The notes beneath the pieces are model-generated. The model saw only the letters and a program-made list of their open reading frames with translations. It made no database searches and had not been told where the DNA came from. A DNA stretch of 52,289 bases from Trichodesmium sp. MAG_R03 (lineage in GTDB: Bacteria > Cyanobacteriota > Cyanobacteriia > Cyanobacteriales > Microcoleaceae), in the NCBI GenBank assembly GCA_023356535.1, contig JAKQYF010000006.1:1-52289 (forward strand). Direction: 5' to 3'. Of the stretch, positions 6,181 to 50,820 are shown in pieces. The translations under genes and the position numbers were made by a program. How positions within the stretch are numbered: the stretch's first letter is position 1; every line of letters starts with the position of its first letter.

Positions 6181-7824
6181 ATGGAATTTAACTACTCTTA
6201 TAAAGGCAACACAGGTGTTAGTGACAATGGTAAAAATACTCAGATGTCCTTCTCTCCAGATACCAAACGAGAGCCTACCTATTTTGTCGGCGAACTGGGA
6301 AAAAATGTCGCATTTCGTGAAGCTATAAGCGCCTTACATGACGTAGTAGTTTCCGATCTCCGATATAAACCAAAAGACAAAACAGCTTATAAAGAATGGC
6401 GTGCTCAACAAGAAGATGAAATAGACTGGGAAAATATTGCAGCTGAAGGTCAAGAAGTAGCTCAAAAAATAGTAGAAATTAGTACAGAATTAAGCCAACT
6501 ATACAAAAACCGACAACAACGTTTAAAACCATTTTACCAAGCTCAACAAAAATTCTTTCAATATCTTTATAAAATTGATTATGATGCTTGGTTTGTTTTC
6601 GACCCAGTAATAACTGTTCATCCTGATGAAATTTTCTTTGAATGTTTCAGTGTTGATGAATCAACTTATGGAAGACTTGGAGCCAGTTATGAAGTATTCA
6701 AAAATATCAATGATTTTGCCTGCGGAACTACCAACATTGACTATTCTGCCGCCCTCTATCAAGAATTTCAAAAAATTCGTAGTTATAAAACAACTCAACT
6801 CCAAGTAGACCCGTCCGGTTTTGAAGTTAAAACTGCCAACGAAGAAACTTTTAAAGAAGTAAAAATAGACCTACCCGATAGCTGGGTAAGAGGATTTTTA
6901 CAAGTCAGTTCAGCGATGTCATTACCAGCTACAAAATTCGACTTGCACCCAATGGATATTCATAATATGTGTTTGGTCTTGCATCGCTACAAAGAAAAAC
7001 ATGGACCCCGCAGTATTAGCTACTTTTTGGAACCAGGAGAACCAATAGAAATAGTATTTGAACCTTGGAATTTGGAAATAATTTGTCACCGTTCGATTTA
7101 CACTGGAAATTCCCCTCAACAAATCCGAACTTGGGGACGAAGAAGACTGCATATTTTAGAACGTTTAATTCCTATTACTAAAAAATTTACTGTTCATTTA
7201 TTAGGCACAGGAATGCCCTCATTTTATGTGGCAGATTTAGGAGATATGTCTTTTACTTTAGGATTATCAGGATGGACGGCAAATGATTGGGCGCAAGCTG
7301 GTAATTTTGACTTAATGGCACCTCGTGCTGATGTGGATGAATGGACTCAGAAAATAATATTTAATGGGTTGCGAGAAAACTGGTTTGAAACTGCCGATAG
7401 TTTAGCAAAAAGACTTAATTTGAGTCGTACTTCTGTATTAGGTGCTTTGGGTGCTTATACTCAAGCCGGACGAGTAATTTATGATTTGAATAAACAGGTT
7501 TATCGGGTCAGAGAATTAAGTCGGGAGCCTCTACCAATGGAGAGGTTAAGGTTTGCAAATGCCAGGGAAGAAAGTGCTACTAGATTTTTGCAAGAAAATT
7601 TAGTTAAGGTAAATTCTGTTCATGATATTAATGGGGTTTTGAGTATTAAAGGAAGCGTGAGGGATAGGGGGATAATTTTTTATTCTTCTTTAGATGTCGA
7701 TCGCGATGAGCGGATAGTTGAGGGGAAATGTAATTGTAATTGGTATCAGCAAAATCAGTTGTATCAGGGGCCTTGCGAGCATATTTTGGCTTTGCGGATG
7801 CAGCAAGCTCGTCAGAGTCGATAG
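6181..7824 (+). CDS. SWIM zinc-finger domain protein, function unknown
   Basis: A 547-residue soluble protein whose only recognisable domain is a C-terminal SWIM zinc finger. The ligands follow the CxC..CxH pattern: Cys517, Cys519, Cys532 and His534 (KCNCNWYQ..GPCEHILALR). SWIM domains bind DNA or proteins. Just upstream (about residues 390-450) is a helical stretch with winged-helix character (FETADSLAKRLNLSRTSVLGALGAYTQAGRVIYD). The first 380 residues are not recognised. Similar bacterial SWIM proteins are often encoded beside MoxR-type AAA ATPases and von Willebrand-A proteins; no such partners are present here and the gene stands alone between repeats. It begins with ATG and shows normal codon use. 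The function remains open. Confidence 0.75.
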   Translation: MEFNYSYKGNTGVSDNGKNTQMSFSPDTKREPTYFVGELGKNVAFREAISALHDVVVSDLRYKPKDKTAYKEWRAQQEDEIDWENIAAEGQEVAQKIVEISTELSQLYKNRQQRLKPFYQAQQKFFQYLYKIDYDAWFVFDPVITVHPDEIFFECFSVDESTYGRLGASYEVFKNINDFACGTTNIDYSAALYQEFQKIRSYKTTQLQVDPSGFEVKTANEETFKEVKIDLPDSWVRGFLQVSSAMSLPATKFDLHPMDIHNMCLVLHRYKEKHGPRSISYFLEPGEPIEIVFEPWNLEIICHRSIYTGNSPQQIRTWGRRRLHILERLIPITKKFTVHLLGTGMPSFYVADLGDMSFTLGLSGWTANDWAQAGNFDLMAPRADVDEWTQKIIFNGLRENWFETADSLAKRLNLSRTSVLGALGAYTQAGRVIYDLNKQVYRVRELSREPLPMERLRFANAREESATRFLQENLVKVNSVHDINGVLSIKGSVRDRGIIFYSSLDVDRDERIVEGKCNCNWYQQNQLYQGPCEHILALRMQQARQSR

Positions 7825-8075: not shown

Positions 8076-8156
8076 GGCCTTCGCGGAGCGTTGCCTTAGC
8101 AGTATCGCCCAACTCTTAGTATTGATCCCTAAATTTATCATTATCAGCTTTACATT

Positions 8157-8489
8157 ACAGCGCTTTTCAAATTCAGGACTTACCCAAGGGCAATATATAT
8201 AGAGCCTTGGTGCGTTACGAAGTTTGCTTTTTATGTCGCGAAGCGTTCGCTCCGCTTGGCGTCAGCAAAACACGCCCTACCAATAGCGTTCATGGGTAAG
8301 TCCTCAAATTGATGAACTACATCGCCATAACTAAAACCTTGTAGGGACGTTGCATGTAGGGACGTTGGATAACAAAAATGCGTTTTCCTGACAGAATGCT
8401 GCGCAAACATGTCCCGTAGCGTTAGCGGAGCTTTGCGTTAGCAAAACGTCTCTACTATGGTCTACTGACATAAAAATTGCTTTCAGTGT
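8157..8489 (+). repeat. ACAGCGCTTTTCA repeat, interrupted copy
   Basis: It begins ACAGCGCTTTTCAAATT and, after an insertion, continues with GATGAACTACATCGCCATAAC, GTAGGGACGTTG, AACAAAAATGCG and CTGACATAAAAATTGCT. The uninterrupted copy of the same sequence is at 26832-26966. The insertion is the 8174-8304 element. Confidence 0.7.
8174..8304. mobile_element. GGACTTACCCA-ended MITE inserted in another repeat (copy b)
   Basis: The inverted ends are AGGACTTACCCA and TGGGTAAGTCCT. It is flanked by CAAATT at 8168-8173 and again at 8305-8310, which look like a target-site duplication. The empty site TTTTCAAATTGATGAAC is present at about 26841. The interior (GTCGCGAAGCGTTCGCTCC..GCGTCAGCAAAACAC) matches 31369-31500. 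Confidence 0.75.
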
Positions 8490-8529
8490 AAGGGACTTCC
8501 CATGATACAGCATATTTGAGGTTTATGAG

Positions 8530-8612: not shown

Positions 8613-8636
8613 TGCTATAATATAAACAGGACTTAG

Positions 8637-8716
8637 GCCAATTCACCTTGAAAACGCCATATGTAGGGGTGAATGGCATTCGCCCTCAATGGATGTAGCC
8701 CCCGTGCATAAGTCCT
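8637..8716. repeat. GGACTTACGCA-type MITE, copy c
   Basis: The ends are CAGGACTTAGGCCA and GTGCATAAGTCCTG. The interior matches copy a at 1042-1131 (ATTCACCTTGAAAACGCC, GGTGAATGG, CGCCCTCAATGGATGTAG). Confidence 0.65.
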
Positions 8717-8912
8717 GATCAACTTAAACAATAACTAAAGTAGTTTTGTGCAATATTCAAACACTCAAATTAAAATATTGCTACCAAACATTTACCATGA
8801 CCAGAAAATTAGGTCTTAAACCTTCCCTTTTAAGGGGATGAAAAATAAAATTCCAGTTTTCAAGCTTCCGGCTTCAGCTGTCGGTACTGATAACTGATCA
8901 CTGATAACTAAA

Positions 8913-10826
8913 ATGACTAAAGCTTTCGACTTCCAAGACGAATACGACATCATCATAGTAGGAGGCGGCCATTCCGGTTGCGAAGCTGCCCTTGCCACCG
9001 CACGCCTCGGTTGCCACACCCTCCTACTAACCCTTAACCTCGATAAAATTGCTTGGCAACCATGCAACCCGGCTGTTGGGGGACCTGCAAAATCTCAACT
9101 TACCCATGAAGTGGATGCCTTAGGTGGGGAAATAGGTAAAATGGCAGACCGTACTTATTTGCAAAAACGCATTCTTAATTCTTCTCGCGGACCTGCTGTT
9201 TGGGCGCTACGAGCTCAAACTGATAAACGGGAATACGCTACCGTTATGGGTAATATTATCGAAAATCAAGAAAACCTCCAAGTTCGGGAAAGCATGGTAA
9301 CAGACTTAGTTCTGGGAGATAACCAGGAAATTATTGGAGTAGAAACCTACTTCGGCGTCGCCTTCAAATGTAAAGCTGTCATCCTCACTACTGGAACTTT
9401 CCTCGGTGGAGTTATTTGGGTAGGCAATAAGTCAATGTCTGCGGGCCGTGCGGGAGAATTTCCTGCTATTGGTCTGACTGAAACCCTGAATAAACTTGGT
9501 TTTGAAACCGGACGACTGAAAACAGGTACTCCTGCCAGAGTTGACAAACGTTCTGTTGACTACACTAACCTGGAAGCTCAACCAGGGGATGAAAAAGTCC
9601 GTTGGTTTAGCTTCGACCCGGAAGTGTGGGTGGAAAGAGAACAGATGTGTTGCTACCTCACTCGCACAACTCCAGAAACTCACAAGTTAATTCGTGACAA
9701 TTTACATTTGTCTCCTGTTTATGGTGGGTGGGTGGATGCGAAGGGTCCGCGTTATTGTCCGAGTATTGAAGATAAAATTGTGCGGTTTGCTGATAAACAT
9801 AGTCATCAAATATTTATTGAACCGGAAGGTCGTGATATTCCTGAACTTTATATTCAGGGGTTTTCTACTGGCTTGCCAGAGAAATTGCAATTGGAAATGT
9901 TACGGAGTTTGCCTGGCTTAGAAAATTGCATAATGTTACGACCTGCTTATGCGGTGGAATATGATTATTTACCTGCGACTCAATGTTATCCGACGCTGAT
10001 GACTAAGAAAATTGAGGGGCTATTTTGTGCTGGTCAAATTAATGGTACAACTGGATATGAAGAGGCAGCAGCTCAAGGTTTTGTGGCGGGAATAAATGGG
10101 GTTAAATTTGTTAAAAATGAAGAGATGATTATTTTCCCACGGGAACAAAGTTATATTGGTACTTTAATTGACGATCTATGTACAAAAGACTTGGGAGAAC
10201 CCTATCGAATGTTGACAAGTCGTTCGGAATATCGTTTGATTTTACGGTCTGATAATGCTGACCAAAGATTAACTCCTTTGGGTCGAGAAATTGGTTTAAT
10301 TGATGACCGTCGGTGGGAGTTATTTGAGAGTAAGCAAGCTAATATTAATGCTGAAAAAGCAAGGTTAAATTCTACTCGAATTAAAGAATTAGATGAGGTT
10401 ACTATTAATATAGTTACTGATACTCAAACAAAAATTAAGGGTTCGATTACTTTGGCAGATTTGTTACGCCGACCAGGTTTCCATTATGTAGATTTAGAAA
10501 AGTATAATCTGGGGAATTTAGATTTAACATTAGCTGAAAAAGAGGAAGCCGAAATTGATATTAAATATTCGGGTTATTTGCAAAGACAGCAAAATCAAAT
10601 CGACCAAATTAGCCGACAAGAAAATCGAAAGTTGCCTGCTAATTTAGATTATTTGGCTATTTCTACTTTGTCGTTGGAGGCACGGGAAAAATTATCGAAA
10701 TTTCAGCCTTTAACTATTGGTCAAGCGTCTCGAATTGGTGGAGTAAATCCGGCGGATATTAATGCTTTACTAGTTTATTTGGAGGTACAATATAGGCTGG
10801 ATAAATTAAGTTCTGTTAATGTTTAG
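8913..10826 (+). CDS. mnmG: tRNA uridine-5-carboxymethylaminomethyl modification enzyme MnmG
   Basis: FAD-dependent enzyme that, with the GTPase MnmE, adds the carboxymethylaminomethyl group to wobble uridine 34 of certain tRNAs in the cytosol. The N-terminus has the dinucleotide-binding signature [17 protein letters not shown] (glycines at 17, 18, 19 and 22). Family landmarks follow: [60 protein letters not shown] and [14 protein letters not shown]. The C-terminal domain for tRNA and MnmE contact ends with [22 protein letters not shown]. The length of 637 residues is typical. It starts at ATG 8913 directly after repeat DNA, has no operon partner, and is intact. Confidence 0.97.
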
Positions 10827-26198: not shown

Positions 26199-26770
26199 GT
26201 GCGACTCCTTCTTACTAGGAGCCTTTAGAAACTAAAAAGGTATAAGTAGGATCAATGAGGCCACTGAAGGAGAGGCTGTAACAGACGAGGCCCCTGAAAA
26301 AGAGCCTGTTGATAACTGAATTTCGGATGCTGGTGAAACTTCAGCCTGCTAAGGGACAGCAGACTCCCTATCTGGCCACACCGAGCTAGAACTTACCGCT
26401 AGCAGAGTGAAGCTGGCATCAGGCCCCAACCCGAGGTAAGGGTGATCGGCACACTGGGGGTAAAGGGGAGACGGTATGGAGACAGTAAGGAATATCCTTA
26501 AAAAGCGTCTTCTCGTTCGGCATAGAGACCCCCAAAACTCTTGAGTGCACAAGAATAATCCCCGCATCACCTCGCATTAGTAGATGCATCCCTGGGGGTC
26601 ATGTAGGCGAAGTGGACAGTCCTAAACCGTCACAAAAATCTGAAATTCGCAACGAGAAAAAATTCTGAGAGAGTCCTGGGAATAAAGGTCGAAAACCCAG
26701 GATAGGCGGGAAGCGCGGAAACCCCTCCAGTGGATAGGATGCAAGCCACCAATTGCTTGCAGGGTAATCA
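26199..26770 (+). ncRNA. Group II intron-like RNA segment, 3' part missing
   Basis: The segment is GC-richer than its surroundings and full of self-complementary blocks. Its first bases, GTGCGACTCC, fit the GUGYG 5' consensus of bacterial group II introns, and they abut the tnpB remnant. Further blocks such as GGTGAAACTTCAGCCTGC and GGAGACGGTATGG look like domain I of cyanobacterial introns. I cannot find a domain V hairpin or an intron-encoded reverse transcriptase. It is therefore either a decayed 5' half or another structured RNA. A minus-strand open frame at 26349-26570 is a shadow. Confidence 0.45.
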
Positions 26771-26831
26771 GAAATTATTATCGTGGCGTAAGTCCTGACT
26801 TGACTTTTTGCTCTTTGTCTGAAAAATTGAA

Positions 26832-26966
26832 TACAGCGCTTTTCAAATTGATGAACTACATCGCCATAACCAAAACTTTTTAGGGAGGTTGCATAACAAA
26901 AATGCCTTTCATGTCGAGTAGCGAAGCGTCCCTACTGTTGTCTACCGACATGAAAACTGCTGTAAA
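26832..26966 (+). repeat. ACAGCGCTTTTCA repeat, uninterrupted copy
   Basis: It runs ACAGCGCTTTTCAAATTGATG to TGAAAACTGCTGTAAAT, with about 13-base imperfect inverted ends. It is the empty-site counterpart of the interrupted copy at 8157-8489. Confidence 0.7.
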
Positions 26967-31268: not shown

Positions 31269-31359
31269 CAGGACTTACGCAACGGTGCTACCTATAGTAG
31301 CAATATCTTAAAAATTACAAACTTATGCACTATATATAGATTTAATGGGTAAGTCCTGA
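31269..31359. repeat. GGACTTACGCA-type MITE, copy d
   Basis: The ends are CAGGACTTACGCA and GGGTAAGTCCTG. The interior differs from the other copies apart from a CTATATATAGATT word. Confidence 0.6.
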
Positions 31360-31368
31360 TTTATAAAT

Positions 31369-31500
31369 CAGGACTTACGCAAAGGTACTATATATAGATT
31401 CCTGGTGCGTTACGAAGTCCGCAATTCAAGTCGCGAAGCGTTCGCTCCGCTTGGCGTCAGCAAAACACACCCTACCAATGGTGTTCATACGTAAGTCCTG
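31369..31500. repeat. GGACTTACGCA-type MITE, copy e
   Basis: The ends are CAGGACTTACGCA and TACGTAAGTCCTG. The interior matches the inserted element at 8174-8304 (GGTGCGTTACGAAGT, GTCGCGAAGCGTTCGCTCC, GCGTCAGCAAAACAC). It lies only 9 bases from copy d. Confidence 0.7.
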
Positions 31501-32053: not shown

Positions 32054-32143
32054 CAGAACTTACCCAGGCGAACTCAGAAACCCTATTTTTTCGTAGATGT
32101 CTAATGATTTATTCTAAAAAGCGGGTTTCTTTGCGTAAGTCCT
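32054..32143. repeat. GGACTTACGCA-type MITE, copy f
   Basis: The ends are CAGAACTTACCCA and TGCGTAAGTCCT. The interior contains GAAACCCTATTTTTTCG and AAGCGGGTTTCTT, which form a second inner inverted pair. Confidence 0.55.
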
Positions 32144-32240
32144 ATTCTTATTTCAGACTACATTTTGTCGTGGAGAACGTAAATCTAGGCTTTATATACA
32201 AACAATACTACTGGACATTATATAAGTAGTAATCAAACTC

Positions 32241-50719: not shown

Positions 50720-50820
50720 AGAACTTCCGCAAACTAACCAAGAAATTGGGTTTGTGGTCCTGACTATTATTGTTCAAACCCCCAAATTTTTTACTATAAT
50801 CTTGTTTCTGCGTAAGTTCT
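50720..50820. repeat. GGACTTACGCA-type MITE, copy g (diverged)
   Basis: The ends AGAACTTCCGCA and TGCGTAAGTTCT enclose an interior with AAGAAATTGGGTTTGTGG and CAAACCCCC, an inner inverted pair like that of copy f. Confidence 0.5.

Follow-up and report, generated by a model that had tools for sequence, protein, structure and literature searches.

The 52,289-nucleotide stretch of Trichodesmium sp. MAG_R03 analysed here (the window; contig C443 of a 5.84 Mb assembly in 486 contigs) carries one interspersed repeat that is interrupted near position 8,174 and another copy that reads straight through, raising the question of whether a mobile element inserted at the first and what could have moved it. 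The interruption at 8174-8305 is a transposon insertion, well supported but ordinary, and a clear case of its kind. With a probability of roughly 0.88, we read it as a 132-bp MITE inserted in trans by a DDE transposase, most likely one from an IS of the IS701 family (ISPlag1-like).

The inserted element has the ends CAGGACTTAC...GTAAGTCCTC, which are inverted and exact over 12 bp, and contains no ORF of at least 100 aa (Table 1). Across 8160-8318 the filled site reads ...GCGCTTTTCAAATT/C-AGGACTTACCCA...TGGGTAAGTCCT-C/AAATTGATGAAC, or, written with its flanks (~8160-8318), GCGCTTTTCAAATTC-AGGACTTACCCA ... TGGGTAAGTCCT-CAAATTGATGAAC. The insertion is intergenic, lying between an ORF at 6181-7824 and mnmG (8913-10826), and a search of Rfam gave no match anywhere in the window. 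A preliminary description had proposed a 131-base element with inverted ends; the inverted-ended insert stands, and its length becomes 132 bp (8174-8305) when both terminal bases are counted.

Table 1. Coordinates of the insertion, its host repeat and related features in the window.
Feature	Position	Strand	Basis or remark
Outer, older interspersed repeat, ends TACAGC.../...TGTA, host of the insertion	~8156..8490	+	
Left AAATT, 5-bp target duplication	8169..8173	.	read from sequence
Non-autonomous element (MITE), CAGGACTTACCCA...TGGGTAAGTCCTC, without transposase gene	8174..8305	+	132 bp
Left terminal region; family consensus CAGGACTTACGCAAAGGTACTATATATAG equals the IS701-type IS terminus at 27/29 positions	8174..8202	+	
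Internal palindromic module, ~40 bp, missing from the 91-bp sister class	8228..8267 (approximate)	+	consensus alignment
Right terminal inverted repeat (GAGGACTTACCCA on the - strand)	8293..8305	-	sequence
Right AAATT, 5-bp target duplication	8306..8310	.	read from sequence
Empty-site copy of the outer repeat, uninterrupted	26832..26964	+	
Second copy of the 132-bp class, TAAAT on both sides, holding the same inner module	31369..31500	.	core 31370-31499 plus one base at each end

To determine the length of the target duplication, we took from loci of this genome 111 distinct elements that carry these ends and measure 80-140 bp. Exact 5-bp repeats flank 54 of them (about 2 expected; at most 9 in 5000 permutations), and 4 or 5 of the 5 bases agree in 75. 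When end positions and repeat lengths were tried in combination, the best signal came from one base outside AGGACTT..AAGTCCT followed by 5 bp; beyond those five positions, on either side, matching falls at once to the background level. Elements take the form C-AGGACTTAC...GTAAGTCCT-A/G/C, and the last base in the 130-base class (n = 53) is A in 44 copies, G in 5 and C in 4. The letters CAAATT do stand on both sides of the window copy, as first described, and the duplication of about 6 bases derived from them gives way to AAATT, 5 bp. The repeat looks 6 bp long here because this copy's own last base is C, so that C precedes AAATT twice; a 6-bp duplication was rejected, as the sixth base belongs to the element in most copies. 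The fixed-length duplication that characterizes MITEs is therefore present and is 5 bp long, with an A+T content of 84% among exact cases.

The element is also short, gene-less and bounded by terminal inverted repeats, and, as is usual for MITEs, it occurs in many copies per genome. Among the candidates scored in the same genome, the inserted stretch recurs in full length at least 40 times with an identity of at least 89%, and the pattern AGGACTTACNCA-N(92-122)-TGNGTAAGTCCT, which places exact ends around 116-146 bp, occurs at 54 places. The reversed control pattern has 0 occurrences in the same genome; with ~40 genome matches and 54 pattern matches set against none, chance is excluded. A consensus from 53 copies is 132 bp long. 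Mean pairwise identity among these copies is 86%, and the window copy agrees with the consensus at 120 of 132 positions, so the family does not represent a very recent burst.

Elements of a shorter class (~80-110 bp) are no less common, with 96 exact-ended places and several different interiors. Two of its 91-bp members (loci L028 and L186) align to the 132-bp consensus except for ~40 internal bases, comprising the palindromic module GTCGCGAAGCGTTCGCTCCGCTTGGCGTCAGC and its flanks. The 132-bp class thus looks like the 91-bp element with an added internal module, and we infer gain as the direction of change. Full-length copies at ~80-90% identity were found in two genomes of the same genus and one of another genus, the plasmid collection gave no matches to the MITE, and a literature search on the end sequence returned nothing relevant.

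Several other stretches of the window carry these ends. A cluster at 31269-31358, 31369-31500 and 32054-32144 consists of three elements that share these ends, each with an exact 5-bp duplication (ATTTA, TAAAT and TTCTT, respectively). A short CAGGACTTAGGCC...TGCATAAGTCCTG element occupies 8627-8717, ~320 bases downstream of the insertion, between ATAAA and ATCAA (4/5 bases agreeing). The same inverted ends recur 89 and 101 bp apart at 1042-1132 and 50720-50820, the former flanked by GATCC and TATCC. Additionally, degenerate AGGACTT-like ends bound a stretch at 26666-26796, just upstream of the empty-site repeat and without an Rfam match.

For a candidate autonomous partner, the DDE_Tnp_1 genes of the genus were fetched and their flanks checked for the ends. 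The candidate left after IS5-like genes were dropped is an IS701-type gene (L117), whose relatives are present in 15 of 30 genomes and are repeatedly framed by CAGGACTTACGCAAAGACACTATATATAG-type ends at a spacing of 1.2-1.5 kb. Ten such full-length IS701_2 elements are flanked by an exact 5-bp duplication, namely those at L100 (ends AGGAGTTACGCA), L117, L122, L123, L131, L139, L141, L142, L143 and L149. Plasmid-borne examples are ISPlag1 of Planktothrix agardhii (annotated as IS701-like; ends CAGGACTTACGCA; one of two copies read is flanked by a TTCAA duplication) and ISs of Nostoc sp. ATCC 53789 (duplications ATAGT and TGGGC), Gloeocapsopsis (GGATA) and Moraxella (TAGGACTTACGCA ends; GAATA). 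Against NF049921 (NCBIfam IS701_2; cut-off 250 bits), the intact transposases in these ISs reach 403-416 bits, and the presumed partner accordingly has an IS701-type transposase. The full-length IS with the same ends and its own transposase, which the preliminary description had proposed as a check, is therefore found as a 1.2-1.5 kb IS701_2 element in this genus, in further cyanobacteria and in Moraxella, and it shares the duplication length of the MITE.

Compared with the IS terminus, the MITE consensus has 27 of 29 bases in common at its left end but 20 of 29 at its right end, where the agreement is mainly over the outer ~13. The similarity found is in the ends, and the interior and the weaker right end count against this partner. 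Of 26 IS701_2 matches in this genome, none exceeds the cut-off; all are broken or partial, most with stops. We infer that the mobilising source has become inactive in this genome or is absent from its assembly; with 486 contigs, that assembly may lack an intact multi-copy IS.

The possibility that an IS5-type transposase moved the element is very unlikely. IS5-type DDE genes do lie between AGGACTTACGCA ends at two loci (L095 and L115), but these IS5 copies have inner inverted ends of their own (AGACCTCTTGCA in L095, AGAACCCATTTGGTATC in L115) and are most readily seen as secondary insertions; an IS5-type partner was rejected on finding them nested in interrupted AGGACTTACGCA elements. In these related genomes the IS5-type elements span 1228-2481 of L095 and ~1393-2330 of L115, and, lying within AGGACTTACGCA elements, they are further cases of nested insertion. 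A further locus, L086, was rejected as an IS, being a U32-peptidase-like gene between two elements.

Staggered-cut chemistry is a general trait of DDE transposases. In the reading we prefer, a DDE transposase acting in trans, most likely from an IS701-family IS (ISPlag1-like, NCBIfam IS701_2), would have inserted the 132-bp MITE. It would recognise the CAGGACTTACGCA ends and make staggered cuts 5 bp apart at AAATT in a copy of the older repeat; repair of the gaps would then duplicate the 5 bases. The common ends and duplication length suggest that an IS of the ISPlag1-like type probably mobilised the element.

Less likely still than an IS5-type partner is a structural or regulatory hairpin repeat whose spread depends on recombination or on an RNA route, not on DNA transposition. 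A single strand of the element folds better than shuffled sequences (z -4.4 as DNA, -3.9 as RNA), and the 132-bp form contains a palindromic inner module; however, inverted repeats alone would give strong folding. Fixed ends, fixed 5-bp duplications and termini in common with an IS are instead marks of a DDE transposon, and the duplication statistics (54/111 exact) strongly oppose the hairpin explanation.

Transposition into an older repeat also accords with the empty sites. The repeat at 26832, described from the outset as free of interruption, does read through: TACAGCGCTTTTCAAATTGATGAAC is unbroken from 26832 and TTTTCAAATTGATGAAC from 26840. We followed up the suggestion that the interior might recur in other copies of the outer repeat, and, after a search for that repeat in the same genome, the insert proved absent from all those inspected, at 29 further loci (a few of them overlapping). 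As the insertion point is uninterrupted in every one, the event was an insertion here and not a deletion elsewhere. When the flanks are joined without the element and one AAATT, the resulting sequence is matched without a break at 43 places in the loci examined, and several other element copies have contiguous empty-type matches too, some in relatives. The original claim of real transposition is thus borne out in the insertion, its boundaries and its 5-bp duplication. The idea that the outer repeat first held the 132-bp interior and lost it in all other copies has next to no probability, as we found no point in its favour, the inspected copies lack the insert, ~40 unrelated sites carry it with 5-bp duplications of their own, and every copy would have had to lose exactly the insert and one AAATT. 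An orthologous empty site upstream of mnmG was sought in relatives, but same-genus homology begins only at ~8720, with one weak short match from ~8660, and those relatives are thus uninformative on the site.

The locus is therefore a MITE within a MITE, the 132-bp element being nested inside a TACAGC...GCTGTA outer repeat. Members of the outer family (8156-8490 and 26832-26964 in the window) have these ends and lengths of ~105-180 bp, and the T-A borders hint that the family may derive from a TA-targeting (IS630-like) element. Within the outer repeat, at 8408-8447, a module CCCGTAGCGTTAGCGGAGCTTTGCGTTAGCAAAAC resembles the inner module of the 132-bp element and is possibly a Nostoc small dispersed repeat.

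Exact boundaries, a 5-bp duplication and a likely mobilising IS type are now fixed for a high-copy MITE group, and a filled and empty pair on one contig provides a usable reference when annotating such elements. The general picture of bacterial MITEs is unchanged. This is a known kind of element; its one mildly unusual trait is a duplication of 5 bp, where 4 bp has been reported for IS701.

Small dispersed repeats (SDR) of Nostoc were reportedly observed inside minitransposons by Elhai et al. in 2008. The ~40-bp palindromic inner module may be SDR-like; unlike an SDR, the whole window element is a transposon. Nezha of Anabaena and Nostoc (Zhou et al. 2008), given as an active cyanobacterial MITE in a review (PMC10969869), is by its description similar in being a short non-autonomous element with inverted repeats. 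ISPlag1 and its IS701-family relatives (NF049921) share with the window element the CAGGACTTACGCA..CTATATATAG terminal inverted repeat and the 5-bp duplication, whereas the window element is 132 bp long, lacks a transposase gene and has a more diverged right end. Target duplications are given as exactly 4 bp for IS701 and 4-5 bp for ISH3 (De Palmenaer et al. 2008, PMC2266710). In contrast, the duplications measure 5 bp at 10 elements in related genomes and at 5 on plasmids, and none of the related-genome elements checked fits 4 bp. The ISPlag1-like group is thus IS701-like by its transposase and not by its duplication length. We tentatively suggest, as a proposal that falls just short of an even call, that this group and its MITEs form a 5-bp lineage, as against the 4 bp taken as diagnostic of IS701, and that this lineage merits separate standing within the IS4/IS701/ISH3 superfamily.
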